From positions 2,678,572 through 2,742,571 of the forward strand of contig CP030759.1 in assembly GCA_003290465.1 (NCBI GenBank): a DNA stretch of 64,000 nt, in the 5' to 3' direction. Shown piece by piece: positions 8,250 to 52,502 of this stretch. Below the pieces are notes generated by a model. It searched no databases. It saw only the letters and a list, made by a program, of their open reading frames with translations, and had not been told where the DNA came from. The stretch's first letter is position 1, and each line of letters begins with the position of its first letter. This DNA is from Candidatus Sumerlaea chitinivorans (GTDB lineage: Bacteria > Sumerlaeota > Sumerlaeia > Sumerlaeales > Sumerlaeaceae). A program made the position numbers and the translations under genes.

Positions 8250-8319
8250 TTCGCAGCCTCCAGCTACGATTTTTTCTCAATCACCGGGCCAGAAGTCAAG
8301 CTCCAAGGGAAATTCCCGC

Positions 8320-14825: not shown

Positions 14826-15759
14826 GCCTGAGGCTGAGCATAGGCCGGTTCTCGATCGCCGCGAGTTCGTGCGCTTAGGAGCGATTACAACCGTTGGGGC
14901 TGCCGTCGTCGGATCTGCATTGATCTATGACCGATTGAACCCCCCAGCGAACGACGTGGAAGGCGAAGCTTCTATCCGCAAGCTGGATGGGCTCTCGGGC
15001 ATTCCGTCGTCCGAGTCGGAAGACCTACTGGTGCGAATGCAGCGGGAGCTAGCCAGGGCTATGGCAAAGCCCATGGAGCAGCGCCAATGGGTCATGGTGA
15101 TTGATACGCGCAAATGCGTCGGCTGCCATGCGTGCACGATCGGCTGTGTGGCGGAGAACAAGCTTCCGCCGGGGGTAGTGTACCGCCCTGTTGTCACCGA
15201 AGAAGCCGGGAAATTTCCGAACGTCCAGTTGCGCTTTACCCCGCGCCCCTGCATGCAGTGCGATGCCCCGCCTTGTGTCCCGGTGTGCCCCGTCAAGGCG
15301 ACTTGGAAACGCAAAGATGGCATTGTCGCGATTGATTATGACAAGTGCATTGGGTGTCGTTATTGCCTGACAGCGTGCCCCTATGGCGCCCGAACCAGCG
15401 ATTTCGGAGAATACTACACGGCAGGTGTGGCCGAGGGAGTACAGCGCAACGATCCTGATCGCCCGCTCGATGGCGCCCGAGCCCGGTACGAAGAGCTCCC
15501 GAATCACGAGTACCACAAAAAGTTTTCTCGTGCCAAACATGGCTCGCCCATGGGGAACGCCCGGAAATGCCATTATTGCTTGCATCGTTTGGAAGAAGGC
15601 ATGTTGCCCATGTGCACCACCACGTGCATTGGACGAGCCACGTACTTTGGCGATGCTGCGGACCCGGATAGTCTGGTCAGCGAACTGATTGCAAAGCACC
15701 GATGCCAGACCCTTCTGCCCGAAAAAGGCACACGCCCGCGCGTTTACTACATCCTATGA
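14773..15759 (+). CDS. Tat-exported four-cluster ferredoxin subunit (NrfC/PsrB/TtrB type)
   Basis: This is the electron-transfer subunit of a respiratory molybdoenzyme. ATG 14773 with AAAGGAG 6 nt upstream is preferred over the in-frame ATG at 14743. A twin-arginine signal ([12 protein letters not shown] at 29-30, then a hydrophobic stretch) directs folded export. Four cysteine groups carry [4Fe-4S] clusters: [35 protein letters not shown], and CHYC with CTTTC eleven residues on. The 328-residue length suits the TtrB/PsrB family plus signal. It is followed by the NrfD-type membrane subunit and the catalytic subunit, giving a complete three-subunit complex. Confidence 0.92.
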
Positions 15760-15790
15760 GCCGTTGATAGCAGAAAGGAGCGACAAGACA

Positions 15791-16987: not shown

Positions 16988-16992
16988 GAACT

Positions 16993-20211: not shown

Positions 20212-20224
20212 TGGAGGTCCAACA

Positions 20225-20638
20225 ATGAAAATTCGCGTTCAAGATAGCTCTGTTCGATATCGCGTCACGCTGCGGGAACTCGAGGAACTCCAGAAGCAAG
20301 GAAGAATCGCGGCAGAGTGCCTAACGCCGGACGGTGGGACGTGGCGTTATGCGATTCGACTCGCTCCGGACTGTGAAGCAAGTCGGTTGGCGATCGAGCC
20401 GTTTGCGATCACTCTCGAACTCACGCCGAGTGATTTTCAGGAACTCAGTCGCCCAGACCGCGAGGGGGTGTACGTGCGCCGCGAGTGGAGCGACTCTGGT
20501 GGAGAGGTGCGCCGCATGATCGCATTTGTGGAGAAGGATCGTCCCGCAGCCACATGCGAGAAACCCGAAATGTGGATCTACGAGGGCCATGGTAAAGGGC
20601 CCCAGATTACAGTACCGATCTCATCCTCGTCAGAATGA
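20225..20638 (+). CDS. Small conserved-looking protein in molybdoenzyme operon (137 aa)
   Basis: The protein starts MKIRVQDSSVRYRVTLRELEEL, a pattern I recall from small DUF7009-like proteins, though I cannot confirm the family. It appears to be a beta-rich soluble protein without signal peptide or metal motifs, apart from a single late Cys. GGAGGT lies about 8 nt before ATG 20225. It is 13 nt after the catalytic subunit and overlaps mobA by 4 bp, so it is certainly in the operon. A role in cofactor insertion or enzyme assembly is an inference from position only. Confidence 0.7.
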   Translation: MKIRVQDSSVRYRVTLRELEELQKQGRIAAECLTPDGGTWRYAIRLAPDCEASRLAIEPFAITLELTPSDFQELSRPDREGVYVRREWSDSGGEVRRMIAFVEKDRPAATCEKPEMWIYEGHGKGPQITVPISSSSE

Positions 20639-21258
20639 TGAGTACGAGGAACACTGAGTGCACTCGAGCACCTTCCCCGCTGGTGGGTGCCATCTTGGCA
20701 GGAGGGTTTTCGCGCCGCATGGGACAGAATAAAGCTGCCATGCGGCTTGTCGACGGCTGCCCCATGATCGAATGGGTTGCGCGGGCGCTTGAGCGAGTCA
20801 CGCCGACGATTGTGGTCATCGGGTCTTCATCAGAGGAACGTTGCTTTCGTCCCCATGTACAAATGCTCAGCGATCTGCGACCCGGCCTTGGGCCTCTGGC
20901 TGGCATCGAGGCACTTCTGGTGAGCAATCTCGCTGATGCTTATTTAGTGGCCGGGTGCGATCAGCCCTTATTGTCACCCTTTTTGCTCGAAGTGTTGGCC
21001 CATGCGGCTGGCCATGCTTACTATGCGGAGGTATGCGTGATTCATTGTGGGAACAGTTGGCAACCCCTGCCGTCCGTGTGGCGTCCGGATGCACTTCGTT
21101 ATGTTCGGAAAGCGCTCGATGCCGGCGAGTACCGACTCCAGCGTGTGATTGCTGATCTTCGACCGCACGAAATAGCCATTTCCCCAGAGATGTTTGCCAC
21201 AGCGATCAGCATGAATTGTCCCGACGACCTTATCGCAGCCGGCCTATTGGAGTGCTAA
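20635..21258 (+). CDS. mobA: Molybdenum cofactor guanylyltransferase MobA
   Basis: MobA attaches GMP to molybdopterin to make the MGD cofactor needed by DMSO-reductase-family enzymes such as the one encoded just upstream. The nucleotidyltransferase fingerprint GAILAGGFSRRMGQNKAAM is at residues 18-36. SDLRPGLGPLAGIEALL and VAGCDQPLL follow in the expected order. The 207-residue length is normal. Start codons at 20635 and 20638 are adjacent; the first overlaps the preceding stop by 4 bp. Co-location means the cofactor step is produced with its client. Confidence 0.92.
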   Translation: MMSTRNTECTRAPSPLVGAILAGGFSRRMGQNKAAMRLVDGCPMIEWVARALERVTPTIVVIGSSSEERCFRPHVQMLSDLRPGLGPLAGIEALLVSNLADAYLVAGCDQPLLSPFLLEVLAHAAGHAYYAEVCVIHCGNSWQPLPSVWRPDALRYVRKALDAGEYRLQRVIADLRPHEIAISPEMFATAISMNCPDDLIAAGLLEC

Positions 21259-22993: not shown

Positions 22994-24070
22994 TCACTCC
23001 ATGATTTCTTGCCATTTGCCAACGGCCCACTCGAGAGCCGACTGATTGGCGACCAGTGCGTCGTAGAGCACACCGATCACGAACATTGCTTCGCCGGGCG
23101 TGCCCGGAGCCGAAGTGTCCGCAACTTCCTCGGGACGCATGAGACCGAAAAGCAGAGGCAACACGTAAGGATTGCGCTCGAGCGCGTTCGTGAGCGATTC
23201 TTTGGCGGCATCCTCGCGTCCCACTTTGTAGTTTGCGAGCATGCGCGCGTACTCAAACACTGCACTGTGATCCTTGGGGTAACGACCATCCATAAGAGTC
23301 AGCGCATCTTCTGCTCGGTCGGAGGTCAGGTAATAGCCAGCCAAAAACTCGCGCACACCAAGGTTGTCGTTCGGGCATAGATCCAGCAATCCCTCAGCTT
23401 CCGCGATTGCACCCTCGATGTCACCCGTCTGACCGAGCGCAGTCATTAGCATTTGGCGCGCACGCATATAGGGGCGCGTTACTGGATCGGTATAGAAGTC
23501 GCCGCGGTGCGAGGCAAAGAACGCTTCACCCAAACGGTTTTCGGCGTCGCGCACGATCTTACGCAACTGTGCCGCCTCATCCTCAGGCGACTCTGCGTTG
23601 ATCAAAGCGATTTGGGCGTCAAGGTTTGTTGGGTCAAGCTCGAGGGCCCGCTCGAGAAGCTCCAGCGCTTCTTCATCATTGTTCGCCTTGATGGCTTGCG
23701 CGACCAAGAGCAGTGACTCTTCCTCGGGCGTGAGATCCAAGCCAGCGAAGATTTCCTCGGCGGACTTGTCCGCGATCAAACTGCTAACGAACGCGTTGGC
23801 TTCTTCTGCGGAGTCAAACTGCTTCTCCGCCAGCAGTCGGCCAATGGCCCGCTGGAGAACTTCCAACTCACGCATTTGGGCGCCAGGAGGGGGGCCGCCT
23901 TCGTCACACGCGTCGTGGGGGCCACCACAGCAGCCTTCGTGAGAATGACCGGGATCGTCGCAACCCGACTCATCGGAGTCGTCCGCGTCGCAGCAATCTT
24001 CGTCGCGTCCACCACAGCAGCCACCGTGGTGTTCATGTTCATCGTCGTGATATCGTTTACGGGGAGTCAA
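22994..24070 (-). CDS. TPR-repeat protein with His/Cys/Asp-rich N-terminus
   Basis: The first 60 or so residues are extremely rich in His, Cys, Asp and Gly (for example HEHHGGCCGG and SHEGCCGGPHDACDE), containing nine Cys and seven His. From about residue 65 the protein is acidic and helical with tetratricopeptide-like units, such as NNDEEALELLERALELDPTN and GDIEGAIAEAEGLLDLCPND, and probably forms a protein-binding scaffold. There is no signal peptide, so it is cytoplasmic. The head resembles metal-storage or metal-delivery tails seen on nickel and zinc chaperones. Metal binding is inferred from composition only. The gene stands alone on its strand with its own terminator. Confidence 0.75.
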   Translation of the reverse strand: MTPRKRYHDDEHEHHGGCCGGRDEDCCDADDSDESGCDDPGHSHEGCCGGPHDACDEGGPPPGAQMRELEVLQRAIGRLLAEKQFDSAEEANAFVSSLIADKSAEEIFAGLDLTPEEESLLLVAQAIKANNDEEALELLERALELDPTNLDAQIALINAESPEDEAAQLRKIVRDAENRLGEAFFASHRGDFYTDPVTRPYMRARQMLMTALGQTGDIEGAIAEAEGLLDLCPNDNLGVREFLAGYYLTSDRAEDALTLMDGRYPKDHSAVFEYARMLANYKVGREDAAKESLTNALERNPYVLPLLFGLMRPEEVADTSAPGTPGEAMFVIGVLYDALVANQSALEWAVGKWQEIME

Positions 24071-24513: not shown

Positions 24514-25251
24514 ATGGAGAATCATCAAAATGTACAAGGTGCGGAAGGAGATTTCGAGCCGATGATGGATCACCTCGAAGCAATGCTCCGGCCGCCGCGG
24601 ATGGAGATGCCGCCGTATCCGGCGAAGTACATCGTCTTGGCCAATGGCGAGATCATGGTCGTGCGCCAAGCCTCGCTCGACGAGGTGGATGTGCTGCTCG
24701 AAGCGGTCGACCCCCTGCGGAAGCTGGATCGCGATTTTTATGACATTGTGGCTGCGCGCCTTTATGCCGAATTGCTCGGCTGGAAGCGTCATCGCGTGCG
24801 CAACGAGTACTGCCTTGTTGGGGTCGTGAATGGTGTTCTTGCGGGCATCGTCAACGGCCGCATGTTCGATGAGAAGTACGGCATTAGTTACCATACTCTG
24901 ACCCTCAAACGCGGCCTACGCGTCGGCGCGCACCTCTTCGCGTCGAAAATGGAATATCACATTGAGTACCTCGGCGAAGAAGAAGTTTGGATCGTCGCCG
25001 AGAGTCCCATCGGCCATCGCCGCTGGATGATTGAGTACCCGCTGGAACAGCGTTTCCAGATTCAGCACGAGTTGGGCGGTGCTCCATCTTGGGCTCTGAC
25101 ACGTGAAACATATTTCAAAGCCAAGCCTCGGCTTGTGAAAGGAACCCGTCCGGTGCCCCCGGAATTGCTGGCGACTTCGTATCCCATCCGCATTCCCGAT
25201 CTCCGGACGATGCTGATCCAAATTGGGGATACACTGGAGGCTCGGCTATGA
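24514..25251 (+). CDS. GNAT-like protein at head of thiolase/DUF35 operon, function unknown
   Basis: The 245-residue product is not a family I recognise with certainty. The middle (YCLVGVVNGVLAGIVNGRMF through EEEVWIVAESPIGHRRWMIEY) has the strand-turn-helix rhythm of GNAT acyltransferases but lacks a clear acetyl-CoA loop. There is no signal peptide. Its stop overlaps the thiolase-like start by 4 bp (ATGA), so the two are coupled and probably act in one process. The candidate promoter lies directly upstream. An acyltransferase role is a weak inference. Confidence 0.65.
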   Translation: MENHQNVQGAEGDFEPMMDHLEAMLRPPRMEMPPYPAKYIVLANGEIMVVRQASLDEVDVLLEAVDPLRKLDRDFYDIVAARLYAELLGWKRHRVRNEYCLVGVVNGVLAGIVNGRMFDEKYGISYHTLTLKRGLRVGAHLFASKMEYHIEYLGEEEVWIVAESPIGHRRWMIEYPLEQRFQIQHELGGAPSWALTRETYFKAKPRLVKGTRPVPPELLATSYPIRIPDLRTMLIQIGDTLEARL

Positions 25252-26429
25252 GAGATGTCGCAATCGTAGGAGCCGCAACGACCCAATTCGGGCGTGCTCA
25301 GTGGAGTCTTCTGAAGCTGGCCGCAGAAGCCGCCCATGGCGCGATCGCCGATGCGGGAGTAGACCCCAAGGCGATTGACCAGGTGTTTGTGGCGAACATG
25401 GGGGCGGGACGCAATAATCGCCAGCTTGCCATCGCCAGCGCGCTCGTGGACCGACTCAACATCTACCCGACCCCCGCGGAAACCGTGGAGAACGGCCCAG
25501 CGTCCGGCGCAAGCGCCGTGAAACTCGGCTGGATGGCAGTTGCCTCCGGCATGTGCGATCTAGTCCTCGTCGTCGGCGTGGAGCGGATGCAAGAGGTCAA
25601 CAACTTCGAGGCGACCGAGTTCGTCAGTTACCTTTCGCACCGCTGGGCCGAGTACATTTACGGTGTCACGTTGCCGTCCCTTGCCGGCATGTTTGCCCGC
25701 CTGTGGATGGAGAAATACGGGGTGACGAGCGAGCATTTGGCCATGGTGGCCATCAAGAACCACAAGAACGGTCTACTGAACAAGAACGCCCACATCAAAA
25801 TGCCGATCTCACTCGAGGCAATTCTTCACGGTCCGGATGCCATCATGAACAACCCCTACGTGGCTGAGCCACTTCGCTTCCTTGATTGCTGTCCGGTGAG
25901 CGATGGTGCGGCTGCGGTGCTGCTTGCGCCGGCCGAGAAAGCCAAGAGCTTTGCCAAAACGCCGGTGCGCATTACGGGCGTGGGCCAAGCCACGGATACC
26001 CATGCGGTGCACGAGCGGCCCGATCCCACGGAGCTGCGCGCGGTGAAGATCGCCTCCCAAAAGGCGTTCGACATGGCGGGGCTGAAGCCGAAGGATATCT
26101 CGCTCGCAGAGCTTCATGATGCTTTCACGATTCTCGAGATCGCCGAGAGCGAACAGGCGGGCTTTTTCCCAGAAGGCCAAGGCCACAAAGCGCTTGAGCG
26201 CGGCGACACCCAAATCGGCGGGAAATTTCCCATCAACGCCTCGGGCGGGCTAAAGGCAAAAGGCCACCCCGTGGGCGCGACGGGCGTCTCGCAGATTGTC
26301 GAGCTGGTTTTCCAACTGCGCGGTGAAGCGGGTGAGCGCCAAGTCAAAAACGCCAAGCACGGTTTCGCGCTCAACTTCGGGGGTTTTGGTAACAACGTTA
26401 TCGCCACGATTCTGACGAAAGGGGTGTGA
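25248..26429 (+). CDS. Thiolase-fold protein lacking the nucleophilic Cys
   Basis: The 393-residue sequence follows the thiolase fold of archaeal-type acetyl-CoA acetyltransferases and Ltp2-like aldolases: LVLVVGVERM, LDCCPVSDGAAAVLLA, LHDAFTILEIAE and GGLKAKGHPVGATG. The active-site loop that normally reads E-A/N-A-C-A-S-G reads ENGPASG here, with Pro84 in place of the catalytic Cys. True Claisen chemistry through an acyl-Cys is therefore unlikely. The His of HPVGATG and the DAFT region are kept. It is coupled on both sides, upstream to the GNAT-like gene and downstream to a DUF35 gene. Thiolase-like proteins without Cys that pair with DUF35 include the steroid side-chain retro-aldolase Ltp2-ChsH2, so an aldolase-type reaction is plausible. 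Confidence 0.85.
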   Translation: MRDVAIVGAATTQFGRAQWSLLKLAAEAAHGAIADAGVDPKAIDQVFVANMGAGRNNRQLAIASALVDRLNIYPTPAETVENGPASGASAVKLGWMAVASGMCDLVLVVGVERMQEVNNFEATEFVSYLSHRWAEYIYGVTLPSLAGMFARLWMEKYGVTSEHLAMVAIKNHKNGLLNKNAHIKMPISLEAILHGPDAIMNNPYVAEPLRFLDCCPVSDGAAAVLLAPAEKAKSFAKTPVRITGVGQATDTHAVHERPDPTELRAVKIASQKAFDMAGLKPKDISLAELHDAFTILEIAESEQAGFFPEGQGHKALERGDTQIGGKFPINASGGLKAKGHPVGATGVSQIVELVFQLRGEAGERQVKNAKHGFALNFGGFGNNVIATILTKGV

Positions 26430-26437
26430 TCCGCACT

Positions 26438-26800
26438 ATGGCCAACAAAGTCGTCAACGCAGCGAAATGCCGGAAATGTGGCAAACTGACCTACCCGACG
26501 CACTTCTATTGCCCAGCGTGCGGAGCCACCGAGTTTGACGCCGTGCCAATCGAAGGCGAGGGGCGCCTCCTGACGTGGACGCGCTGCTACAACCTGTCGC
26601 TCGATTACGATGACCTGTTCATCGCATTGGGGATCGTCGAGATGGACATGGGGATTCGCGCTCTGGGGCAGTTGCGAATTGAGGAACCGCGGACGGGAAT
26701 GCGGGTGCGCGCAACTGTCGGGCCAGTGCGTGACGTCAACGGCCGCGACGTCTATGGGCTGATATTTGAGTCTGCCGAGCCGGTGGCTGCGGAAGCGTAA
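26438..26800 (+). CDS. DUF35 zinc-ribbon/OB-fold protein, partner of thiolase-like protein
   Basis: The product has a rubredoxin-like zinc ribbon (Cys11, Cys14, Cys25, Cys28) and then an OB-fold domain (GEGRLLTWTRCYNL, ALGIVEMDMGIRALGQL). DUF35 proteins form complexes with thiolases, HMG-CoA synthase or Ltp2-type aldolases and help bind CoA substrates. A GTG at 26426 overlaps the thiolase stop, but ATG 26438 with AAAGGGG upstream gives a cleaner N-terminus. It belongs with the thiolase-like gene directly before it. Confidence 0.88.
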   Translation: MANKVVNAAKCRKCGKLTYPTHFYCPACGATEFDAVPIEGEGRLLTWTRCYNLSLDYDDLFIALGIVEMDMGIRALGQLRIEEPRTGMRVRATVGPVRDVNGRDVYGLIFESAEPVAAEA

Positions 26801-26967: not shown

Positions 26968-27825
26968 ATGCCCATTCAACGTTACGAACGCCCCACCACG
27001 CTCGATGGGGCGCTTGCCTTGCTCAGCGAAGCCGCCGAGAGCCCACCCGTTATCGTTGCAGGTGCCACCGATCTTGCTGTCGATGTTCGCCGAGGTCGTG
27101 ACGTTCCCTTTGTGGTGGACGTCAAACAAATTCCTGAGCTCAATGAGTATAAGTGGACGCCCGACGGCGCCCTTGTAATGGGGGCGTGTGTGACCATGAA
27201 GCACATCGGCGCTGATCCGCGCGTGCGAGAGCGCTATCCTGCCCTTGCTGCGGCAGCCGACGACGTCGGTTCCTACCAGATTCGTTGTCGGGCGACCATC
27301 GCCGGCAACCTTGGGAACGCCTCTCCGTGCGCCGACACCGCACCTCCGCTCCTTGTGCTTCAGGCTCGCCTACGTCTCCGCTCACGCTCAGGCGAACGCG
27401 AAGTCCCGCTCGAGAAGTTCTTCGTCCATGTAAAACGCACCACGATCCAGCCGGGGGAAATCATCACCCATGTGATCATTCCACCACAGCCGCCCGGCCT
27501 TCGGAACGTATTTCTAAAGATTAAGCGAGTGCGGGGCCACGATCTTGCGCTTGTCAATGCAGCTGGTGCCTTCGACCCCGTCGCCCGGGAGATCCGCCTC
27601 GCGGTAGGGGCCGCTGCCCCCACGCCGATTCTTGTGCGCGGGTTGGAGGGGATCTGCCCCGAAGGCGCATGCCCCGAAGAAGTCGGTGAGGCCTTGGCGG
27701 AGCGGGCTCTGGCCGCCATCAGCCCCATTGACGACGTGCGCGCCAGCGCAGAGTACCGCCGGGACATGGTGGCCACTATGTGCCGGCGCATTGCCGCCAT
27801 TTTACTCGAGCCGGACGCTCACTAA
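26968..27825 (+). CDS. Xanthine dehydrogenase family FAD-binding subunit
   Basis: This is the medium subunit (CoxM/CutM/XdhB type) of a molybdenum hydroxylase. The FAD-binding PCMH fold shows IVAGATDLAVDVRRG (about 29-43) and IAGNLGNASPCADTAPPLL (about 111-129), followed by the CO-dehydrogenase-flavoprotein C-terminal domain. It takes electrons from the FeS domains and passes them to an acceptor. GAGGAGG lies about 8 nt upstream of ATG 26968. It is separated by 36 nt from the fused FeS-Mo subunit, making a two-gene enzyme. Confidence 0.92.
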   Translation: MPIQRYERPTTLDGALALLSEAAESPPVIVAGATDLAVDVRRGRDVPFVVDVKQIPELNEYKWTPDGALVMGACVTMKHIGADPRVRERYPALAAAADDVGSYQIRCRATIAGNLGNASPCADTAPPLLVLQARLRLRSRSGEREVPLEKFFVHVKRTTIQPGEIITHVIIPPQPPGLRNVFLKIKRVRGHDLALVNAAGAFDPVAREIRLAVGAAAPTPILVRGLEGICPEGACPEEVGEALAERALAAISPIDDVRASAEYRRDMVATMCRRIAAILLEPDAH

Positions 27826-27861: not shown

Positions 27862-30732
27862 ATGAACCGCGAAATTACACTCACCATCAACGGCGAAAAG
27901 GCAACGCTGAGTGTTCCGCCCCATCGGACGTTGCTTGAACTCATCCGGGGCGAGCTTCATCTGACGGGCACGAAGCTCGGCTGCGGCATCGGCGAGTGCG
28001 GTGCGTGCACCGTCATCATGAATGGCGAACCCGTCAATTCGTGCTTGGTGCTGGCTGCGGAAGCGGATGGCGCTGAGATCTGGACCATTGAAAGCGAAGC
28101 GCAGGGAGACACGCTTTCGGATCTACAACAGGCGTTTGTCGATTTCGGTGCGACCCAGTGCGGATTCTGCACGCCGGGCATGATCATGTCCGCTCGTGCC
28201 CTGCTCGAGCGCAACCCTTCGCCCACCCGCGAAGAAATCGCTGAAGCGATTGCCGGCAACTTGTGCCGCTGCACTGGCTACGAGCCAATCATTGAGGCCA
28301 TTGACGCCGTAGCCCGCGAGCGACGCAGTGGCGGCTATAAGCCGCGCACGCCAGCTCTTAAGCCCGGGGAGTACGTAGGCAGCGGCACACCCCGCGTGGA
28401 TGCCTTCGAGAAGGTTGCGGGCAGCGCCATTTACGTCCATGACATGGTGCTTCCCGGTATGCTCTATGCACGCATCAAAACGAGTCCGTATGCGGCTGCG
28501 CGCATCAAGGCCATCCACACAGAGAAAGCTGCTGCCATGCCGGGCGTGAAGGTGATTCTTACCGGCAAGGACTTACCCCCAGTGAAAGTGGGCCTTTACC
28601 TGCAGGACAAAGACATCCTCGTGCGTGAAGTGGTCCGTTTCCAAGGCGAGCCAGTAGTGGCGGTGGCCGCAGAAACCGAAGACATTGCGCGCGCGGCGTG
28701 TGACGCGATCGAAGTCGAGTACGAGCCCCTCGAGCCCGTGATGGATGTGGAAAAAGCCTTCGAAGAACGCGAACGGCTTGTCCACCCGGATCTGGGGAGT
28801 TACTCGTACATGAAAGGCGTCTTTTTCCCGCAACCCGGGACGAATATCGCTCATCATCAGAAAATCCGGAAAGGGAACATTGACGATGGGTTCGCCCATG
28901 CCGATGTGGTGACGGAATATGAGTTCTGGAACCCACCCGTTCAGCACGTCGCGATGGAGACGCATACGTCAATTGTACAGGCAAAACCCGAGGGGAAAGT
29001 GGACATTATCTCCTCTGCCCAATCGCCCTATGCGGTGCGAAACCTTTTTGCCCATGCGTTCGGGATCCCGCACGCCAACATTCGCGTGCGTGTGCCGTAC
29101 GTAGGCGGCGGGTTCGGCGGCAAAGCCGGAATCCATCTCGAACCGCTACTCTATTGCTTGTCGAAAGCAGCAAAGGGGCGGCCGGTGAAGCTCACCTGCA
29201 CGCGCGAAGAAGAATTCAACACGATGCCTTCGCGCCAAGGTCTGAAGAGCGTCGTGAAAACAGGCGTCACTCGCGACGGCAAGATCGTTGCTCTCAAGGT
29301 GCGCTACCTGTGGGATGCCGGTGCCTATGCCGATTACGGCGTTAACATTGGGCGAGCCGCGGCCTACTCGGGTGCGGGCCCGTACCACATCCCCAATTGC
29401 TGGATTGATTCGTTCGTGGTCTACACCAACAAGGTGTTTGGCACTGCCTACCGCGGCTTTGGCCACTTGGAAGTCCTCTGGGCAATCGAACGCAATATGG
29501 ACCTCGTGGCGAAGCAGCTTGGCATGGACCCGTTTGAGTTCCGCATGAAGAACGTGCTGCGGGTCGGCGACACCACGATCACCGGCGAAAAAATCACGCA
29601 TCACCACGGCCGACCAGACAAATGCCTCGAGATCGTTGCCCGCGAGATTGGCTGGGAGAATCGCCATCAGCAGCCCAAACAAGTGGCGCCGAACAAACTG
29701 CGCGGCTTTGGCCTCGCCTTGCTGCACAAGGCACCCGCCATGCCCACCTTCACTTCGTGCTCGGCCATCATCAAATTTAATGAGGATGGCTCGGTGAACG
29801 TGCTGGTGAGCGGCGTGGACTATGGTCAGGGCACCTACACCGCTCTCGCCCAGATTGCTGCGGATGAGCTCAAGATTCCGATCGAAAAGGTCCGCATCTC
29901 GTGGGATTGCGACACCGACTACACTCCCTACGATTGGCAGACCGTGGCAAGCCGCTTTACCGTGATGGGCGGAAATGCCGTCATTCAGGCAGCGCGCGAC
30001 TGCCTGAACCAGATGAAGAACATTGCCTCGCAAGTGTTGCGTGTTCCGCCCGATCAGCTCGAATGTGCGGATGAGAAGGTCTATTTCCGCGGCAATCCCG
30101 ATATGGCAATCCCGTACCGCCAGCTTGCCATCGGCTACGTGTATCCGAACGGCAACGCCATCGGTGGGCCAGTGATCGGGCATGGGCGCTACATTGCAGT
30201 TGGCCTGACGAACCTCGACCCCGAAACTGGCCAAGGGCTTCCCGCGCTTGACTGGACCTATGGGGCCCATGCTGCGGAAATCGAAGTGGATATCGAGACT
30301 GGTGAAATCGAGGTCCTACGCCTGATCTCCGCATTCGACGCCGGCAAAGTGATCAACGAGCAACAGTGCAAGAGCCAGATTGTTGGCGGTGTCGTCCAAG
30401 GGCTTGGCTCCGCCATGAGCGAGAAATTTATCTTCAACGAGCATGGCCAATTCCGCAACGCAACCTTCACGGATTACAAAATTCCGACAGCGCGAGACAT
30501 CCCGCGGGAAATGAAGTCGTTCCTCGTGGAGACTCCTGACGCGCAAGGGCCCTACGGGGCGCGGGGAATCGCCGAACATCCTATGGTGTCCATCCCAAGC
30601 GTGATTGGGAATGCAATTGCCGACGCCACCGGTGTCGAAATGTTCGAATTCCCGTTCTTACCCGAAACGGTATACCTTGCGCTGAAGCGAGCGGGGGTTA
30701 CCCCTAAGCCCACCGCAGGGGTCACAGCATGA
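27862..30732 (+). CDS. Fused 2Fe-2S/molybdopterin subunit of xanthine-dehydrogenase-family enzyme
   Basis: A 956-residue fusion of the small and large molybdenum hydroxylase subunits. Residues 1-160 carry a plant-type [2Fe-2S] site (Cys41, 46, 49, 61) and the helical [2Fe-2S] site (Cys100, 103, 135, 137). From about residue 175 comes the aldehyde oxidase/xanthine dehydrogenase domain, with PYVGGGFGGKAG, TAYRGFGHLE, the substrate-gate region and the catalytic Glu in GARGIAEH near the C-terminus. It hydroxylates an aromatic or aldehyde carbon using water. AAGGAGT sits upstream of ATG 27882 is not needed; the ATG at 27862 is preceded by AGGAAGGAG. Neighbouring FdrA/DUF1116 genes suggest a purine- or ureide-like substrate, but related enzymes also act on nicotinate, CO and quinoline. 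Confidence 0.93.
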   Translation: MNREITLTINGEKATLSVPPHRTLLELIRGELHLTGTKLGCGIGECGACTVIMNGEPVNSCLVLAAEADGAEIWTIESEAQGDTLSDLQQAFVDFGATQCGFCTPGMIMSARALLERNPSPTREEIAEAIAGNLCRCTGYEPIIEAIDAVARERRSGGYKPRTPALKPGEYVGSGTPRVDAFEKVAGSAIYVHDMVLPGMLYARIKTSPYAAARIKAIHTEKAAAMPGVKVILTGKDLPPVKVGLYLQDKDILVREVVRFQGEPVVAVAAETEDIARAACDAIEVEYEPLEPVMDVEKAFEERERLVHPDLGSYSYMKGVFFPQPGTNIAHHQKIRKGNIDDGFAHADVVTEYEFWNPPVQHVAMETHTSIVQAKPEGKVDIISSAQSPYAVRNLFAHAFGIPHANIRVRVPYVGGGFGGKAGIHLEPLLYCLSKAAKGRPVKLTCTREEEFNTMPSRQGLKSVVKTGVTRDGKIVALKVRYLWDAGAYADYGVNIGRAAAYSGAGPYHIPNCWIDSFVVYTNKVFGTAYRGFGHLEVLWAIERNMDLVAKQLGMDPFEFRMKNVLRVGDTTITGEKITHHHGRPDKCLEIVAREIGWENRHQQPKQVAPNKLRGFGLALLHKAPAMPTFTSCSAIIKFNEDGSVNVLVSGVDYGQGTYTALAQIAADELKIPIEKVRISWDCDTDYTPYDWQTVASRFTVMGGNAVIQAARDCLNQMKNIASQVLRVPPDQLECADEKVYFRGNPDMAIPYRQLAIGYVYPNGNAIGGPVIGHGRYIAVGLTNLDPETGQGLPALDWTYGAHAAEIEVDIETGEIEVLRLISAFDAGKVINEQQCKSQIVGGVVQGLGSAMSEKFIFNEHGQFRNATFTDYKIPTARDIPREMKSFLVETPDAQGPYGARGIAEHPMVSIPSVIGNAIADATGVEMFEFPFLPETVYLALKRAGVTPKPTAGVTA

Positions 30733-30895: not shown

Positions 30896-32509
30896 TTGAA
30901 GGAAACTTCAGGAAAGCCGGTTGCGCCCCAATGGGATCAAAGCGCAGCCCCTGCAGCCAGCCGCGGACAGGTCCGGGTGCGGCGGGGCGAATACTTTGAT
31001 TCTGTTCTCCTGATGCGTATCTCTCGGTCGCTCAAACAACTGGAGGGCGTGGAGGATGCCGTCGTGGCGATGGGAACCCCCCAGAACAAAGCACTCCTTG
31101 CCGAGCAGGGTTTTGCGGGGCCCGACCTCGATTCGGCAACGCCCAATGATTTGATCATCGCGGTCCGCGGAGCGGAGATCCCCGACGCCATCATTGATCA
31201 GGAGATTCGCAACATCGTTCAGCCCGAACCTGAAGGGACACGGTCTCGCCCGCGTCCGCGCTCGCTGGCAGCCGCCCTCTGCGAAATGCCCGATGCGAAC
31301 ATGGCGGTGATTTCCGTCCCCGGCCTTTACGCAGCCCGAGAGGCGCGTCAAGCGTTGCGCCGGGGACTTCATGTGATGCTGTTCTCCGACAACGTCTCGG
31401 TCGCCGATGAGATTGCCTTGAAGCGCGAGGCCCTTGAGCGCGGCCTCCTACTCATGGGCCCCGACTGCGGTACAGCGATCATCAATGGCATGCCGCTGGG
31501 TTTTGCAAATGCAGTGCGGCGTGGTCCCATCGGGATCGTGGGTGCCGCCGGAACAGGGATTCAGGAAGTCTCGTCGTGTATCCATCGGTTGGGTGGTGGA
31601 ATTTCCCAAGCGATTGGGACTGGGGGGCGAGACCTGTCGGACGAGGTAGGTGCGGCGACCATGCGCGTGGGCATCGCAGCCCTCAGTGCGGACCCATCCA
31701 CGCAAGTCCTTGTTGTCATTTCCAAAACCCCCTCGCCTGTGGTCGCCTCGAATGTGATCCAAGCCCTCGCGGACGCCAGCAAACCGGCTGTTGTACATTT
31801 TGTTGGCTACGATCCTGCTCAGGCAGGAAAGCTGCCCCCGAATGTTCGGTTTGCGGATTCGCTCGCAGGAACAGCGGAGCTGGCCTGTCAGCTCGCGGGC
31901 ATTGCGGTAGCGGGGCCCACCGAAAGCTGGCCGGCGCAGGCATTGGCCCGGTCCTTAGCCGAGCGGCTTTCCCCCGATGCGTGCCTTCGCGGTCTATTCT
32001 GCGGCGGCACCACGGGTCAGGAAGCCCTCGCGATTCTCAGCCGCGCTGGCATAGCCGTGCGCTCGAATCTCCACAAGCACGGTGAACTTCGCATCGTGGG
32101 CACGGAAGTTGTCTCAGGACACGTATTGCTCGATCTCGGCGCAGACGAGTTCACGGTTGGACGTCCCCACCCCATGATCGAGCCTGTTTTGCGCAATGAG
32201 CGCCTTCGTGAGGAAATGCAAGACCCAAGCGTCGGCATTTTGCTATTTGATTGTGTGCTTGGTTACAGTGCGCACCCGGATCCCGCTGGCCTTCTTGCGG
32301 AAGCCGTCTTGGAAGCCAAGGAAACCGCAGCTCGGCGCGGCCGCGAGGTGATCGCGATCGCCTCTGTCACAGGCACCGACGAAGACCCCCAGCCAGCCGT
32401 CTTCCAGAAACGAGAATTGGAGCAAGCTGGCATTACGGTGGCACCGGATAATCGCCACGCGGCCCAACTGGCCGCAATGGTTCTCAAGAACTTAGCAGCG
32501 AGGGCATAA
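30896..32509 (+). CDS. fdrA: FdrA-family protein (AllF-like oxamate carbamoyltransferase component)
   Basis: FdrA proteins resemble succinyl-CoA synthetase alpha/beta folds. The 537-residue product has the CoA-ligase-like regions MGPDCGTAIINGMPLGFA and GIVGAAGTGIQEVSS, and a C-terminal half with LRGLFCGGTTGQEAL. In E. coli, FdrA with a DUF1116 and a DUF2877 protein has been linked to oxamate carbamoyltransferase (AllFGH), which turns oxalurate and phosphate into oxamate and carbamoyl phosphate. All three families are in this cluster. The start is a TTG at 30896, supported by GAGGGGAG 7 nt upstream; no better ATG is present. Function is inferred from family and context. Confidence 0.88.
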   Translation: MKETSGKPVAPQWDQSAAPAASRGQVRVRRGEYFDSVLLMRISRSLKQLEGVEDAVVAMGTPQNKALLAEQGFAGPDLDSATPNDLIIAVRGAEIPDAIIDQEIRNIVQPEPEGTRSRPRPRSLAAALCEMPDANMAVISVPGLYAAREARQALRRGLHVMLFSDNVSVADEIALKREALERGLLLMGPDCGTAIINGMPLGFANAVRRGPIGIVGAAGTGIQEVSSCIHRLGGGISQAIGTGGRDLSDEVGAATMRVGIAALSADPSTQVLVVISKTPSPVVASNVIQALADASKPAVVHFVGYDPAQAGKLPPNVRFADSLAGTAELACQLAGIAVAGPTESWPAQALARSLAERLSPDACLRGLFCGGTTGQEALAILSRAGIAVRSNLHKHGELRIVGTEVVSGHVLLDLGADEFTVGRPHPMIEPVLRNERLREEMQDPSVGILLFDCVLGYSAHPDPAGLLAEAVLEAKETAARRGREVIAIASVTGTDEDPQPAVFQKRELEQAGITVAPDNRHAAQLAAMVLKNLAARA

Positions 32510-32575: not shown

Positions 32576-34036
32576 ATGAACGTCGAAAACATCCTGAAAC
32601 TGTTTGGGCAAGGTCGTGAGGGGGACGCCCCTCTGCGCGTCATTAATCTGGGGCTGAGTATTTTCGCAGAAAATCTTGAGCGGGCCGGGGCACGCGTTGT
32701 GCATACGGATTGGCGTGCAGAAGCGGGGGGAAAGCTCGAGCTCATCGAAGCCCTCGATGCGTTGCGCGATCCTGCGGGAGAATTGCGCGCGGACATCGTC
32801 GCTGCAAACGAAGAAGCGGTGTCGCGCATCCTGCGCGGAAAGCCGGTGATCGTCGGAATCGGTCGTGCTCTCGAGGTGATCCCGGGCATGCACCAGAAGC
32901 TGTTGCTCCACGCAGGGCCACCCGTGACGTGGGAGCGCATGTGTGGTCCGATGCGTGGCGCAGTGATGGGAGCGCTCATGTACGAGGGGCTAGCAAAATC
33001 CCCAGAGGAAGCGGCCCGGCTTGCAGCAAGTGGCGAAATTGAGTTTGCGCCGTGCCACCATCATCAAGCGGTGGGACCCATGGCAGGGATCGTGAGTGCC
33101 TCGATGCCGGTGTGGATCCTCCGCAACGAAACGTTCGGCAACCTCGCCTTCTCAACGCTCAACGAGGGGCTCGGCAAAGTCCTGCGTTACGGCGCTTACA
33201 GTGATGAGGTCTTGAGGCGACTCAAGTGGATGGAGGAGGTGCTTGCCCCAATCCTTGCAAAAGCGCTCGAACTCCACGGCCCAGTGGATATGCAGGCGCT
33301 AATCGCCCAAGCGCTGCAGATGGGCGACGAAGGGCACAATCGCAATCGCGCCGCCACCAGTTTGCTCATTCGTACCCTTGCTCCCCACATAGTTCACGTG
33401 CAGGCGTCTGTCAGCGATGTTGCGGAGGTTTTCCGCTTTCTCGATAGCAACGACCACTTCTTTCTCAATCTCAGCATGGCCGCGTGCAAGAGTCTCCTCG
33501 ACCCGACGCTTGGGATTGAGAAGAGCACCGTTGTTTCCACGATGGCCCGCAACGGCACGGAATTCGGCATCCGTGTGGCAGGGCTCGGCGAGCAGTGGTT
33601 TACAGCGCCAGCCCCGAAAGTGGAGGGTCTCTACTTACCGGGTTTCAGCGAAGCCGACGCGGCGCCCGATATCGGAGATTCGGTGATCACGGAGACAGCC
33701 GGCATTGGCGGTTTCGCGATGGCGGCTGCCCCAGCCATTGTCCAGTTTGTTGGGGGAACCGCGGCCCAAGCCCTCACCTTTACCCAACGAATGTATGAAA
33801 TCACCGTTGCGGAAAACCCGCTCTGGCGCATCCCTGCCCTTGATTTCCGCGGGACGCCTACGGGCATCGAGCTGACCCGTGTCGTGGCCAGTGGGATCGT
33901 TCCCGTCGTCAATACTGGCATTGCCCATCGCGAGCCCGGCATCGGAATGGTGGGGGCCGGCCTCGTGAAACCCCCGATGGAGTGCTTCGAGCAGGCGCTC
34001 CTTGCTTTTGCGCGCAAGTATCAATCCAACAATTAA
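32576..34036 (+). CDS. DUF1116 protein (YlbE/AllG-like)
   Basis: A 486-residue DUF1116 protein. Family landmarks include GMHQKLLLHAGPPVTWERMCGPMRGA, CHHHQAVGPMAGI with adjacent His residues, GDEGHNRNRAA, and the C-terminal TGIAHREPGIGMVGAGLVKPPM. In E. coli the corresponding protein is a component of the oxamate carbamoyltransferase complex with FdrA and a DUF2877 protein. It lies 66 nt after fdrA and 17 nt before the cyclase-family gene, with AGAAGAG just upstream of ATG 32576. It is probably cytoplasmic. Confidence 0.88.
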   Translation: MNVENILKLFGQGREGDAPLRVINLGLSIFAENLERAGARVVHTDWRAEAGGKLELIEALDALRDPAGELRADIVAANEEAVSRILRGKPVIVGIGRALEVIPGMHQKLLLHAGPPVTWERMCGPMRGAVMGALMYEGLAKSPEEAARLAASGEIEFAPCHHHQAVGPMAGIVSASMPVWILRNETFGNLAFSTLNEGLGKVLRYGAYSDEVLRRLKWMEEVLAPILAKALELHGPVDMQALIAQALQMGDEGHNRNRAATSLLIRTLAPHIVHVQASVSDVAEVFRFLDSNDHFFLNLSMAACKSLLDPTLGIEKSTVVSTMARNGTEFGIRVAGLGEQWFTAPAPKVEGLYLPGFSEADAAPDIGDSVITETAGIGGFAMAAAPAIVQFVGGTAAQALTFTQRMYEITVAENPLWRIPALDFRGTPTGIELTRVVASGIVPVVNTGIAHREPGIGMVGAGLVKPPMECFEQALLAFARKYQSNN

Positions 34037-34053: not shown

Positions 34054-34947
34054 ATGAAACTAATTGATCTCACGATTCCGTTGGGAATTGCCACGCCGGC
34101 GTGGCCAACCTACGAGCCGCTGCAGGTGAAGTACTTTAAGCGTCTCGCGCCGAACGGTGCAAACGGACAGCTCCTCACCCATTCCAATCACTTGGGAACC
34201 CATCTCGACGGCGAGATTCACTTTTATACGCCGGGACGCGACATTGCCTCGCTCCCACTGGATTTCCTCGTGAGCGACGGTGTGATTGTGGACCTTTCCG
34301 ACGCGGTAGATGCCTACGAAATCTACACATCGAAAATGGTCGAGGAACGCGTCGAGGTCCGCGAGGGCGACATCCTGATCATTCACACCGGATTCCATCA
34401 CTACGGGTGGGACCAGCCCACGGCCGACGAGGTGGCGTACATGGTCAAGCACCCCGGTCCGGACCGTGAGTTCGCTGAGTGGGCGAAGCGCAAAAAGATC
34501 AAATGGATCGGCGTGGATTGCGGTAGCGCCGATCACCCGATGAACACCATCATCCGCCAGTGGATGCCACGGCAAGCCCGAGAGGCGGACAAGGTATTCC
34601 GTGAGAAATACGGTAAGTCGCTCGAAGAAGTGTTCGACGACTCAAAGTACCAGCTCATGCACCTTGAGATGTTCAACCATGGGATTATCCATGCGGAATG
34701 CCTCGGCGGTGACATTGACCTCTTGCTCAACCAGCGATGCAAAATCGGCTGCTTCCCGTGGCGTTTCGTGGATGGCGAGGCGTCCATCGCACGCATTGTC
34801 GCCTTCGTCGAGGACGACCGCTACGAAGAACTCATGAAGGTGAAGGCGAAGTGCCAACTGACGAAGTTCGGGGACATCGCAGGGGCCTTCCACCCAGAGC
34901 TTCACGGCAATGGCCGCGGGGGCAAACAGTGTTTCCCAAAGAAGTAG
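34054..34947 (+). CDS. Cyclase-family (kynurenine-formamidase-like) metal hydrolase
   Basis: Cyclase-family enzymes are metal-dependent hydrolases of amides or lactams, such as isatin hydrolase and bacterial kynurenine formamidase. The signature HLGTHLDGEIH (His46, His50, Asp52, His56) supplies the metal ligands, and WIGVDCGSADHP carries the second active-site patch. At 297 residues it is longer than typical members (about 210-260), with an extra C-terminal segment from about residue 235. GGAGG lies 7 nt before ATG 34054. Inside a molybdenum-hydroxylase/FdrA cluster, a ring-opening or deformylating step on a hydroxylated heterocycle is plausible but unproven. Confidence 0.85.
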   Translation: MKLIDLTIPLGIATPAWPTYEPLQVKYFKRLAPNGANGQLLTHSNHLGTHLDGEIHFYTPGRDIASLPLDFLVSDGVIVDLSDAVDAYEIYTSKMVEERVEVREGDILIIHTGFHHYGWDQPTADEVAYMVKHPGPDREFAEWAKRKKIKWIGVDCGSADHPMNTIIRQWMPRQAREADKVFREKYGKSLEEVFDDSKYQLMHLEMFNHGIIHAECLGGDIDLLLNQRCKIGCFPWRFVDGEASIARIVAFVEDDRYEELMKVKAKCQLTKFGDIAGAFHPELHGNGRGGKQCFPKK

Positions 34948-35113: not shown

Positions 35114-36172
35114 ATGAGCAAAGGCGCCACCGAAATACCTAACCTACGCATTGGGGACCTTGCCCTTCAGGCGCTCCGCAGTGCGCGACGCGGTTGCCTA
35201 ATGGCAAGCACCACGAGTGGAGTCTTTCTGGAGCTGGACACAGGCCTGATTCTTGCCCTGCTTGCCGGAGGCACTCCTTTGCATCCGTGGGCGGTGAGCG
35301 GCATTCTGCCCGTGCAGTGGGAGGAGCTACGCGCCCTTACCCCCTCTCGAACAAAGACGAATATCTTGGCCCCGCGTTCTCGGACGAAGGCGTCGCCCAA
35401 CGTGACGTTCGAGGTCACACCCGTTGCGCTCAAAGGCCCCGGCGTTGAGTTGATTTATGCCAAAGCCGTCGTCGTGGGGTTGCGCATGCCGCGCTGGGGC
35501 CCAAGCATGGAGGGAAGCGATTCTTCTCAGGAGGCACCCACTCCCACGGAAGTTCGCCCCGCGAAAACGCACAAGAGAGCTCCGCTCCGAGCTACACTTC
35601 GGAAACTTGTTTCCACGCACTCACGGCAGGCTTCCCACAAGTCCGGAGCGGTTCAAGCATCCGACCACGCGCTGCTCGTTGCGGCAACAACGCTTCAGGC
35701 GGAGGTGTCTAAGGCCGCGCCCTCGGGCAGTGAGTTGCTTGGTGCAGGTTCTCTCCGCGATGCTTTGCATATGATTCGCACGCAAGGCGATCCGCGTCCG
35801 TTGGCAGCGTTATTGGGGGGCGGCGAAGGCTTAACCCCAGCGGCGGACGACGTGATCCTCGGCGTGTTGGCTGCATGCGAAATGCTTTCGGATTTCGAAC
35901 CCACTGTGCGGCGGTTTCGCCAAGAGCTTGTGGCGCAGATGCCGACCCCCCTCCGCCAGTATACCACAAGATTTTCTGCTCAGTTGATCGAAGCGGCAAT
36001 CGCAGGCCACTTTCCTGAACCGTTACTCGACATTGCACACGCCATCTGTGCCCCACAGTTTAGCGAAGCTCAGTTGGTCGAAGCCACGAAGCGGCTTCTC
36101 GCGGTGGGCCATTCGTCGGGGCTGCTCTGGCTTAGCGGTTTCTCGGAGATTTTTTCCACTTCACTGCGATGA
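35114..36172 (+). CDS. DUF2877 protein (YlbF/AllH-like)
   Basis: A DUF2877 protein of 352 residues. The diagnostic block GGGEGLTPAADDVILGVLAACEM (about 235-257) and the later VGHSSGLLWLSG are clear. In E. coli the counterpart is the third component of the oxamate carbamoyltransferase complex. Residues about 135-175 form a polar, Lys/Arg/Ser/Pro-rich stretch that looks like an unstructured insert compared with the ordered flanks. It follows the cyclase gene after 166 nt, slightly apart from the rest of the cluster, so a separate promoter is possible. Confidence 0.8.
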   Translation: MSKGATEIPNLRIGDLALQALRSARRGCLMASTTSGVFLELDTGLILALLAGGTPLHPWAVSGILPVQWEELRALTPSRTKTNILAPRSRTKASPNVTFEVTPVALKGPGVELIYAKAVVVGLRMPRWGPSMEGSDSSQEAPTPTEVRPAKTHKRAPLRATLRKLVSTHSRQASHKSGAVQASDHALLVAATTLQAEVSKAAPSGSELLGAGSLRDALHMIRTQGDPRPLAALLGGGEGLTPAADDVILGVLAACEMLSDFEPTVRRFRQELVAQMPTPLRQYTTRFSAQLIEAAIAGHFPEPLLDIAHAICAPQFSEAQLVEATKRLLAVGHSSGLLWLSGFSEIFSTSLR

Positions 36173-43609: not shown

Positions 43610-43636
43610 GGAACTGGCACAACGAGAGGAACACAA

Positions 43637-44119: not shown

Positions 44120-44206
44120 TTCGCGTCCGGCGCAGGCCGAACGAATTTGCTCCCACAAGCTTTACTCGAGCCCAAGAACGAGTGGAACGAAAAGGATGTG
44201 AGAAAG

Positions 44207-51216: not shown

Positions 51217-52164
51217 TCATGGCACGATGCGTGTGCCTGTTTTTCCGTCCAGCGCCTCGGTAAATTTTTCTGGGGAGGTGATGATGACCGTATCGCCACC
51301 GTTGCGCAGGAATTGGATGGCCGCCCGAATTTTGGGACCCATGCTTCCCGCGGGAAACTGACCCTCCTCGAGATAGCGCTCGGCTTCGGCCACGGTCATG
51401 GAATCGAGCAGTCGCATCGTCGGTTTGCGAAAATCCACCGCCACTTTCTCGACGCCCGTCAGGATCACCAGCACCCCGATGCCGAGATTTGCTGCCAAGA
51501 GCGCACTGGCAAGGTCCTTGTCAATGACCGCCTCGACGCCGTGCAGAAGTCCTCGTTCGTCGCGAATGACGGGGATTCCGCCGCCGCCGGCTGCGATGAC
51601 AATGAAGTTCTTTTCCAGAAGAGCCCGCACGGCTTCGAGTTCGACGATTTCCTTCGGTTCGGGAGAGGGCACCACCCTTCGCCAGCCGCGCCCTGCGTCC
51701 TCGCGCATGCGCCAGCCTCGTTCCTCCATCATCCGCTTGGCTTCCTCTTCGCTGTAGAAGCGGCCAATGGGCTTGGTGGGCTGCTGCCATGCGGGGTCAT
51801 TTCGGTCCACGACGACCTGCGTCAGCACACACACCACGCGCTCCGGCATTCCCTTTTCATGGAGAATGTTGTAGAGCACCTGCTGGAACATATAGCCCAT
51901 GCCCCCCTCGGAGTCGGAAACGCATGTGTCGAGCGGGAGCGGATAGACGTACGACGAAGCAAGCTCGCTGCGTAGCACGATATTGCCCACCTGAGGCCCA
52001 TTTCCATGAGTGAGCACGACGCGCTCGTACCGCCCTTCGATGGCTCGAACCAGTTCGCGCATGGTCTCTTCTGTGTGGCGGAACTGTTGTTCGATCGTCC
52101 CCTCTTCCCCTTCGCGGGTGATCGCGTTTCCTCCCAGCGCAATGAGCACCGCCGATTTCCGCAT
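51217..52164 (-). CDS. arcC: Carbamate kinase
   Basis: Carbamate kinase converts carbamoyl phosphate and ADP to ATP, CO2 and ammonia. It begins at MRKSAVLIALGGNA (ATG 52164, AAGGGA about 10 nt upstream) and shows LTHGNGPQVGN, QQVLYNILHEKG, AAGGGGIPVI and the C-terminal GSMGPKIRAAIQFL. The 315-residue length is normal. No arginine deiminase or ornithine carbamoyltransferase is nearby. The window's FdrA/DUF1116/DUF2877 cluster would be a natural source of carbamoyl phosphate, although 15 kb away and on the other strand. Confidence 0.95.
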   Translation of the reverse strand: MRKSAVLIALGGNAITREGEEGTIEQQFRHTEETMRELVRAIEGRYERVVLTHGNGPQVGNIVLRSELASSYVYPLPLDTCVSDSEGGMGYMFQQVLYNILHEKGMPERVVCVLTQVVVDRNDPAWQQPTKPIGRFYSEEEAKRMMEERGWRMREDAGRGWRRVVPSPEPKEIVELEAVRALLEKNFIVIAAGGGGIPVIRDERGLLHGVEAVIDKDLASALLAANLGIGVLVILTGVEKVAVDFRKPTMRLLDSMTVAEAERYLEEGQFPAGSMGPKIRAAIQFLRNGGDTVIITSPEKFTEALDGKTGTRIVP

Positions 52165-52502
52165 ACGTTGTTTCCCTTGGCGAAAAATGATTGTCGGCTT
52201 GGGATGGCTCGAACGCTTTCCCTCTGGCCGAAACACAATATTTCGGGATGCAAACCACCAGAATTGCAACAAAGAAAGCACCGTGGCCTGTTTAGAAACG
52301 GCAACTTCCCACGGGGTTCTATTGCTGAAGAGGTACTGGGTGGCAGAGATGGGCAGGTGCGCCACGTGAGTGAGCTATGCCAGAACGAAGATCGAAGATC
52401 AGCCGCGCAGCAAAGAGCAAACGACCGAAGTTATTGGGCCCAGGATGGGAATGGGGTGCTGAGCCGGACGGATTCGGTCCCGCTGGACCATCTTCTCCGA
52501 AT
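52165..52502. other. Region between guaA 3' end and arcC start
   Basis: No gene is seen in these 338 nt. Just past the guaA stop, GGTCC-CGCT-GGACC (52476-52489) is nested within GATTCGG...CCGAATC (52471-52503). This could fold on the minus strand, but it lacks a T run and is a weak terminator candidate. The arcC promoter presumably lies at the left side. Confidence 0.35.

Follow-up and report, generated by a model that had tools for sequence, protein, structure and literature searches.

A bacterial thiolase-fold family with an invariant proline at the nucleophile site: candidate malonyl-CoA decarboxylases in a pyrimidine-degradation-type gene cluster

Architecture of the thiolase-fold locus

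We analyzed a 64,000-nucleotide stretch of the Candidatus Sumerlaea chitinivorans genome (hereafter the window; GCA_003290465.1, contig CP030759.1, forward-strand positions 2,678,572 to 2,742,571), which encodes a thiolase-fold protein devoid of the thiolase nucleophile. The gene (25248..26429, + strand, in window coordinates) specifies a 393-residue protein that carries Pro84 at the cysteine site, retains His290 (HDAF motif) and His340 (GHP motif) and is proposed here to act as a malonyl-coenzyme A (CoA) decarboxylase. It is the central member of a triad of genes on the + strand, preceded by a gene for a 245-residue GNAT-fold protein (24514..25251) and followed by one for a 124-residue DUF35 protein (26426..26800), with 4-bp overlaps on both flanks (ATGA with the GNAT-fold gene and GTGA with the DUF35 gene).

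The thiolase open reading frame scores 437.7 bits against the NCBIfam model NF004720 (PRK06064; cutoff 420) and matches both Thiolase_N and Thiolase_C_1 of Pfam. Its AlphaFold2 model (mean predicted local distance difference test score of 81.7 and predicted template-modeling (TM) score of 0.88, with two segments below 50) is nearest in Foldseek searches to archaeal thiolases (6et9, 6esq and 7yvy; TM-score of about 0.9), and its relatives include the steroid aldolases Ltp2–ChsH2 (6ok1) and Sal–Shy (9myr). The closest known proteins, with about 40% identity over the full length, are the acetoacetyl-CoA thiolase of the archaeal thiolase/3-hydroxy-3-methylglutaryl (HMG)-CoA synthase/DUF35 complex (6esq/6et9) and the Pyrococcus furiosus enzyme 7yvy. 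The window protein shares with 6esq a DUF35 partner, and with both enzymes the histidines of the HD.F and GHP motifs, although the latter reads GHA in 6esq. It differs in having proline for the nucleophilic cysteine and alanine for the HDCF cysteine of 6esq, in being encoded with a GNAT-fold protein rather than HMG-CoA synthase, and in belonging to a bacterial catabolic cluster.

The DUF35 partner comprises zf-ChsH2 and OB_ChsH2_C domains and a C-x2-C-x10-C-x2-C zinc ribbon, the Cys4 ribbon of Ltp2/Sal-type partners, in agreement with the pairing recognized in an earlier note made from the DNA alone. That note had overlooked the coupled upstream gene, whose product has a CoA P-loop-like RGLRxG motif and an invariant S125-x-H127-T128 signature. 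It finds no sequence match in NCBIfam, the PDB or Pfam (to an E value of 5, the GNAT-type malonyl-CoA decarboxylase family PF05292 included), and only a fold search places it, its model matching CoA-binding GNATs with an E value of 5e-7 and a Foldseek probability of 1.00, at a TM-score to the query of only about 0.5. In archaea, DUF35 bridges thiolase and HMG-CoA synthase (PMC12329534); a DUF35 protein bridging the thiolase-fold and GNAT-fold proteins would be analogous.

The Cys-to-Pro change is invariant and has a single origin

The altered nucleophile loop, E81-N82-G83-P84-A85-S86-G87 (codons at 25488..25508, + strand; Pro84 is encoded by CCA), aligns with EAACASG in two archaeal thiolases, 6esq and 7yvy; the earlier note had likewise read it as an altered EAACASG loop. 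A single scan of genome contigs returned 17 homologues with 55–81% identity to the window protein, from Planctomycetota, Eiseniibacteriota, Gemmatimonadota, Acidobacteriota, Spirochaetota, Chloroflexota, Verrucomicrobiota and Lentisphaerota; genome searches in Sumerlaeota, the host phylum, and in spirochaetes brought the total to 29 genomes, so that the family spans at least eight named phyla in addition to the host's. Since ENGPASG is found in all 29 genomes with the Cys-less family and the Cys-thiolases recovered by the same searches have a cysteine in that column, Pro84 reflects neither chance nor a sequencing error.

The Pro-containing proteins fall on one side of a single branch in 96% of bootstrap trees (support 95/82), the other side, labeled CYS, being defined as not-Pro and thus also holding Gly-containing proteins (L020–L025) and the Ser-containing protein 4yzo. 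The Cys-to-Pro change therefore has a single origin on the tree. The ratio of nonsynonymous to synonymous substitution rates (dN/dS) is low, about 0.05–0.2, at a dS near saturation. The Ser-containing protein, ST0096 of Sulfolobus tokodaii, resembles the window protein in its replaced cysteine, its C-terminal motif and its sequence (about 38% identity), but lies outside the Pro clade. The Gly-containing thiolase-like proteins come from Gammaproteobacteria, have a YDCF motif and Ltp2 as their nearest PDB entry, and are probably Ltp2/Sal/SLP-type aldolases.

Active-site residues argue against thiolysis and retro-aldol cleavage

In addition to Pro84, the alignment shows family-wide invariance of His290-Asp-Ala292-Phe, Gly339-His340-Pro and the N376FGGFGN tail, whose final residue is serine in one member (L066). 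The fold and the later histidine motifs are hence preserved, as the earlier note had stated. The protein accordingly has the fold, the family profile and the enolate oxyanion-hole histidine pair of SCP2/archaeal-type thiolases and lacks their nucleophilic cysteine (CxS) and the HDCF cysteine. The latter loss, which the note did not mention, affects the residue that provides the acid/base cysteine in SCP2-type thiolases (PMC12329534): all family members have HDAF, a motif that also occurs in 7yvy, a Cys-thiolase. A cysteine elsewhere in the active site, which the note had named as a result that would refute its reading, was not seen: the sole invariant cysteine is C215, just before PVSDGA, a position at which Cys or Ser also occurs in ordinary thiolases.

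In thiolase chemistry, the histidine pair equivalent to His290 and His340 forms an oxyanion hole for the enolate thioester, and the backbone NH of the cysteine residue contributes to a second oxyanion hole, which proline, having no NH, is unable to do. Because proline at the cysteine site takes away the nucleophile and, from the second oxyanion hole, an NH donor as well, no acyl-enzyme can form and, judging from its sequence, the protein cannot perform thiolysis via an acyl-cysteine. The name given by present annotation pipelines, "thiolase domain-containing protein", that is, an acyl transferase, is contradicted by the missing cysteine. Enolate chemistry without an acyl-enzyme remains, which fits decarboxylation: His290 and His340 would bind the thioester oxygen and stabilize the enolate left upon departure of CO2, as in KSQ-type ketosynthases. 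KSQ domains decarboxylate malonyl thioesters and, like the window protein, combine a Cys-less condensing-enzyme fold with retained enolate-stabilizing residues, but they have glutamine instead of proline, act on acyl carrier protein substrates and belong to a different family. The Trypanosoma brucei SCP2-thiolase-like protein TbSLP (5ab4–5ab7), which also lacks the thiolase cysteines, decarboxylates malonyl-CoA weakly and very slowly (PMC12329534); it differs from the window protein by its YDCF motif, the absence of DUF35 and an identity of about 25%.

The earlier note had likened the pair to Ltp2–ChsH2 and suggested carbon–carbon bond chemistry, rather than thiolysis, within the neighboring pathway. 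A retro-aldolase of the Ltp2/Sal type, or another C–C lyase acting on a β-hydroxyacyl-CoA, would share a Cys-less thiolase fold seated on DUF35, and 6ok1 and 9myr are among the Foldseek relatives; Sal likewise has no nucleophilic cysteine, with glycine in its place, and the catalytic residues are Tyr294 and Tyr344 in TcLtp2 and Tyr302 and Cys304 in CtSal (PMC12329534, from which these assignments are taken). Aligning Ltp2 to L020 and L020 to the window protein, Tyr294 corresponds to His290 and Tyr344 to His340, and the CtSal pair corresponds to His290 and Ala292. The window protein is also closer to the archaeal thiolases (about 40% identity) than to Ltp2 (27%), and no hydratase, steroid or β-oxidation genes were recognized in the loci read, although these were not searched with a MaoC hydratase profile. 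We consider an Ltp2-type retro-aldolase very unlikely because both Ltp2 catalytic tyrosines are absent, and rejected it on these residues; the analogy with Ltp2 is therefore not supported, whereas the absence of an acyl-cysteine route stands and bond cleavage with loss of CO2 is the best reading, the gene neighborhood favoring oxidative pyrimidine breakdown and decarboxylation of malonyl-CoA over retro-aldol cleavage. By its nucleophile the family is predicted to be no thiolase, and by its residues no Ltp2/Sal aldolase.

The triad belongs to a molybdenum hydroxylase–AllFGH gene cluster

Downstream of the triad, on the + strand, lie genes identified by Pfam and NCBIfam profiles as the flavin adenine dinucleotide (FAD) subunit of a xanthine-dehydrogenase-type molybdenum hydroxylase (26968..27825) and its fused [2Fe-2S] and molybdenum subunits (27862..30732), which are separate genes in most relatives. 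They are followed, also on the + strand, by genes for an AllF/FdrA-like subunit of the oxamate transcarbamylase type (30896..32509; NF004760, 500 bits, cutoff 433), an AllG-like subunit (32576..34036; PF06545, 340 bits, cutoff 27), a PF04199 metal-dependent cyclic amide hydrolase or "cyclase", the proposed ring opener (34054..34947; Pfam), and an AllH-like subunit (35114..36172; PF11392, 70.7 bits, cutoff 25). Homologues of all three E. coli AllFGH oxamic transcarbamylase subunits are thus present above their cutoffs, but in the window cluster their neighbors are not allantoin genes but the molybdenum hydroxylase, the triad and the PF04199 hydrolase, and the proposed substrate of the transcarbamylase is ureidomalonate. 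An amino acid kinase family protein encoded 15 kb away (51217..52365, − strand; PF00696) is a probable carbamate kinase, 51% identical to one within the L015 cluster, and could make ATP from carbamoyl phosphate.

The PF04199 gene in relatives usually lies directly 5' of the GNAT-fold gene, and their clusters also hold GntR regulators, carbamate kinase and NCS2 permeases (L005, L007, L008, L010, L015, L017 and others), the L017 permease being a UraA equivalog (587.6 bits, cutoff 477). Every sufficiently long locus contains the full triad, and in each of them the GNAT-fold gene immediately precedes the thiolase gene. Among 198 spirochaete genomes, the window-type GNAT occurs in exactly the 11 that have the Cys-less thiolase; as the two genes are linked, this shared distribution shows inheritance as a unit and not independent co-occurrence. 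AllG was found in 16 of the 17 triad genomes from the contig scan versus one of 14 control genomes, and in all three Sumerlaeota genomes with the Cys-less thiolase versus none of the 37 without it (40 genomes). The corresponding figures in spirochaetes are 10/11 and 27/187 (Fisher test, 1.6e-7; the Fisher tests given here ignore phylogeny).

Several further features of these genomes were noted. In the Verrucomicrobia-type genomes L009, L011, L012, L013 and L018, a nitrilase-superfamily hydrolase gene lies divergent to the triad and may take over from an amidase or have a ureido compound as its substrate. An Anaerolineaceae genome (L049) has a second AllF–AllG locus with, by eye, dihydropyrimidinase-like and ferredoxin-like neighbors, which places AllFG modules in several pathways. 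Elsewhere in the window are a second molybdenum-hydroxylase set (42737–46594), in which a probable 2Fe-2S gene separates the FAD and molybdenum subunit genes and which a HypA-like gene (46597–47028) follows, and a region read by eye from its translations (14743–21258) as a molybdopterin oxidoreductase with iron–sulfur and NrfD-like membrane subunits, then a MobA-like gene, molybdenum-cofactor supply from which would fit the hydroxylases. A gene at 22994–24070 (− strand) encodes a possible metal-binding protein whose N-terminus is rich in His and Cys (HHGGCCGG..., HSHEGCCGG) and precedes a repeat-like C-terminal part. At 1634–5408, a long series of repeats with the translations LWIDLGESLVT / IVTKLSPRSIHN, separated by unrelated spacers, resembles an array of clustered regularly interspaced short palindromic repeats (CRISPR).

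Other genes take the place of the triad in spirochaetes

We read the AllG loci of the spirochaete genomes that lack the triad (27 of 37; the other 10 have it). Nine of them have a class-III CoA-transferase gene near the PF04199 gene, mostly adjoining an amidase gene, and none of the nine has the window-family GNAT (Fisher, 0.0015). In seven others, the GNAT is of another type (GNAT2), which shares about 39% identity with that of the window. Three of these seven carry mmdA-D-C-B-like genes inside the cluster, between the hydroxylase and AllF, and the other four, together with one AllG-less genome, have an mmdA-like gene divergent to the GNAT gene (five in all). The nearest NCBIfam models to these mmd-type genes are those of methylmalonyl-CoA decarboxylase (alpha subunit) and of the Na+-translocating decarboxylases (beta subunit). 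The mmdA-like gene is absent from all 10 triad loci and present in 11 of the 27 non-triad AllG genomes (p = 0.018). A further 11 AllG spirochaetes fit no module or sit on short contigs.

These loci suggest three alternative endings of one pathway: amidase with CoA-transferase and decarboxylase, GNAT with Mmd, or GNAT with Cys-less thiolase and DUF35. The GNAT would stand in for the amidase and CoA-transferase, and the thiolase/DUF35 pair for the biotin-dependent decarboxylase. This arrangement bears on whether the GNAT-fold protein itself could be the enzyme, for instance a malonyl-CoA decarboxylase like MCD or CurA, with the thiolase/DUF35 pair serving as a non-catalytic CoA-binding scaffold. 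GNAT folds can decarboxylate malonyl thioesters, the thiolase has lost its cysteine, and of the two partners the GNAT is more widely distributed and is also found without the thiolase. Yet a decarboxylating GNAT2 beside mmdA-type decarboxylase genes would be redundant, the GNAT matches no MCD family, and a scaffold would not need the invariant histidine pair; we regard this alternative as unlikely.

It is similarly improbable, in our view, that the triad serves another step of the same pathway, such as activating or transferring a malonamyl or ureidomalonyl group, with an unlinked enzyme performing the decarboxylation. This would suit the usual position of the triad right after the PF04199 hydrolase gene, its replacement of CoA-transferase and amidase and not of mmdA alone, and the match to OAD_beta, the Na+-pump decarboxylase beta subunit, found somewhere in 13 of the 29 triad genomes. 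No OAD_beta match, however, was found in the other 16, including the host genome, which on its single contig (96% complete) has no MdcA or MdcE match either, and MdcE exceeded its cutoff in none of the 18 triad genomes searched. The genome-wide OAD_beta deficit (13/29 triad genomes versus 26/28) was discarded as evidence, being confounded by phylum. Nor did we rely on MdcA, which is found, without an MdcE above cutoff, in six of 18 triad genomes but, in the majority of the Verrucomicrobia-type ones, lies beside an aconitase-like gene rather than the triad. Eukaryote-type MCD (PF05292) was found in none of the 29 triad genomes and in none of the control genomes either, so that this search carries no weight. 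In one spirochaete (L016), the triad locus (1964–8338) includes genes for an amidase and for a protein resembling malonate decarboxylase alpha (MdcA), with no MdcE match in the genome.

A pyrimidine-degradation-type pathway is the preferred interpretation

In the oxidative pathway, uracil is broken down to urea and malonic acid, with methylmalonic acid as the product when thymine is the substrate (PMC7662398). For the cluster described here, we infer each of the following reactions from gene content and residues. The molybdenum hydroxylase would convert uracil or thymine to barbiturate or methylbarbiturate, the ring of which would be opened by the PF04199 hydrolase, proposed here in place of the known barbiturase (cyanuric acid hydrolase family), to give ureidomalonate or ureidomethylmalonate. 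E. coli AllFGH splits oxalurate into carbamoyl phosphate and oxamate (PMC11326118). Since ureidomalonate is an acyl-urea that differs from oxalurate only by an additional CH2, the AllFGH-type transcarbamylase could phosphorolyse it to carbamoyl phosphate and (methyl)malonamate. Moving the malonyl group from its nitrogen onto CoA would then fall to the GNAT-fold protein, and decarboxylation of (methyl)malonyl-CoA to acetyl- or propionyl-CoA would fall to the Cys-less thiolase/DUF35 pair. For uracil, the overall route would run through barbiturate, ureidomalonate, malonamate plus carbamoyl phosphate and malonyl-CoA to acetyl-CoA.

The cluster might instead degrade another N-heterocycle (hydantoin, parabanate or a purine-derived compound) via oxalurate and oxamate, with the triad acting on oxalyl-CoA or another acyl-CoA. 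The use of oxalurate by E. coli AllFGH, the xanthine-dehydrogenase-like molybdenum subunit and, in the alternative module, the class-III CoA-transferase, which is nearest to CoA:oxalate CoA-transferase (below cutoff), are all consistent with this. The methylmalonyl-CoA-decarboxylase-type genes and the UraA equivalog, however, suit malonyl and not oxalyl chemistry, and no allantoinase or ureidoglycolate genes were recognized in the clusters, which makes such a route a distant prospect. With regard to the pyrimidine neighborhood, one GNAT2–mmdA locus (L161) also has, by eye, hydantoinase- and PreA/PreT-like genes, and a PreT/GltD-like protein flanks another locus (L002), with its best NCBIfam matches being of the glutamate synthase type.

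Several observations weigh against the pyrimidine interpretation. Among the replacement genes, the decarboxylase beta subunit scores above its cutoff but mmdA (alpha) falls below the curated one (782 versus 998.8), and a gene resembling mmdA can also encode a subunit of propionyl-CoA carboxylase. The module classes were set after inspection of genomes that are related to each other. An OAD_beta gene is also present in 13 of 29 triad genomes, and within spirochaetes its occurrence hardly differs between triad and non-triad genomes. In Verrucomicrobia-type genomes, the triad and the AllF–AllG–hydrolase genes are both present but lie apart, the triad being beside the nitrilase-family gene. The host cluster has no permease, and the NCS2 match in the host genome is weaker (1.3e-35); uracil as substrate is inferred from the context given by the permeases and the L161 neighbors. 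Mechanistically, transfer of an acyl group from nitrogen to sulfur by the GNAT would be uphill and need the pull of decarboxylation, the residue at the cysteine site is not the glutamine of KSQ domains, and malonyl-CoA is not decarboxylated by CtSal, a relative that also lacks the cysteine and binds DUF35 (PMC12329534). Weighing these points, we give about even chances to the proposal that the triad supplies the last steps of an oxidative pathway of the pyrimidine-degradation type, with the Cys-less thiolase/DUF35 pair as malonyl-CoA decarboxylase.

Literature searches for the gene cluster found no description of it. More tentatively, and with the balance of probability against it, the triad may define an undescribed oxidative uracil/thymine route in at least eight bacterial phyla, in which the carbamoyl group is saved as carbamoyl phosphate by a ureidomalonate transcarbamylase and a GNAT/Cys-less-thiolase/DUF35 complex turns malonamate into acetyl-CoA with no need for ATP, biotin or an amidase of its own, thiolase-fold decarboxylation pulling the uphill amide-to-thioester transfer. 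If the proposal is correct, a thiolase-family enzyme would have been made a decarboxylase by an invariant Cys-to-Pro change, within a complete pyrimidine pathway of poorly known bacteria, and functions would be assigned to a nameless GNAT family, to the PF04199 hydrolase and to AllFGH-type transcarbamylases beyond allantoin metabolism.

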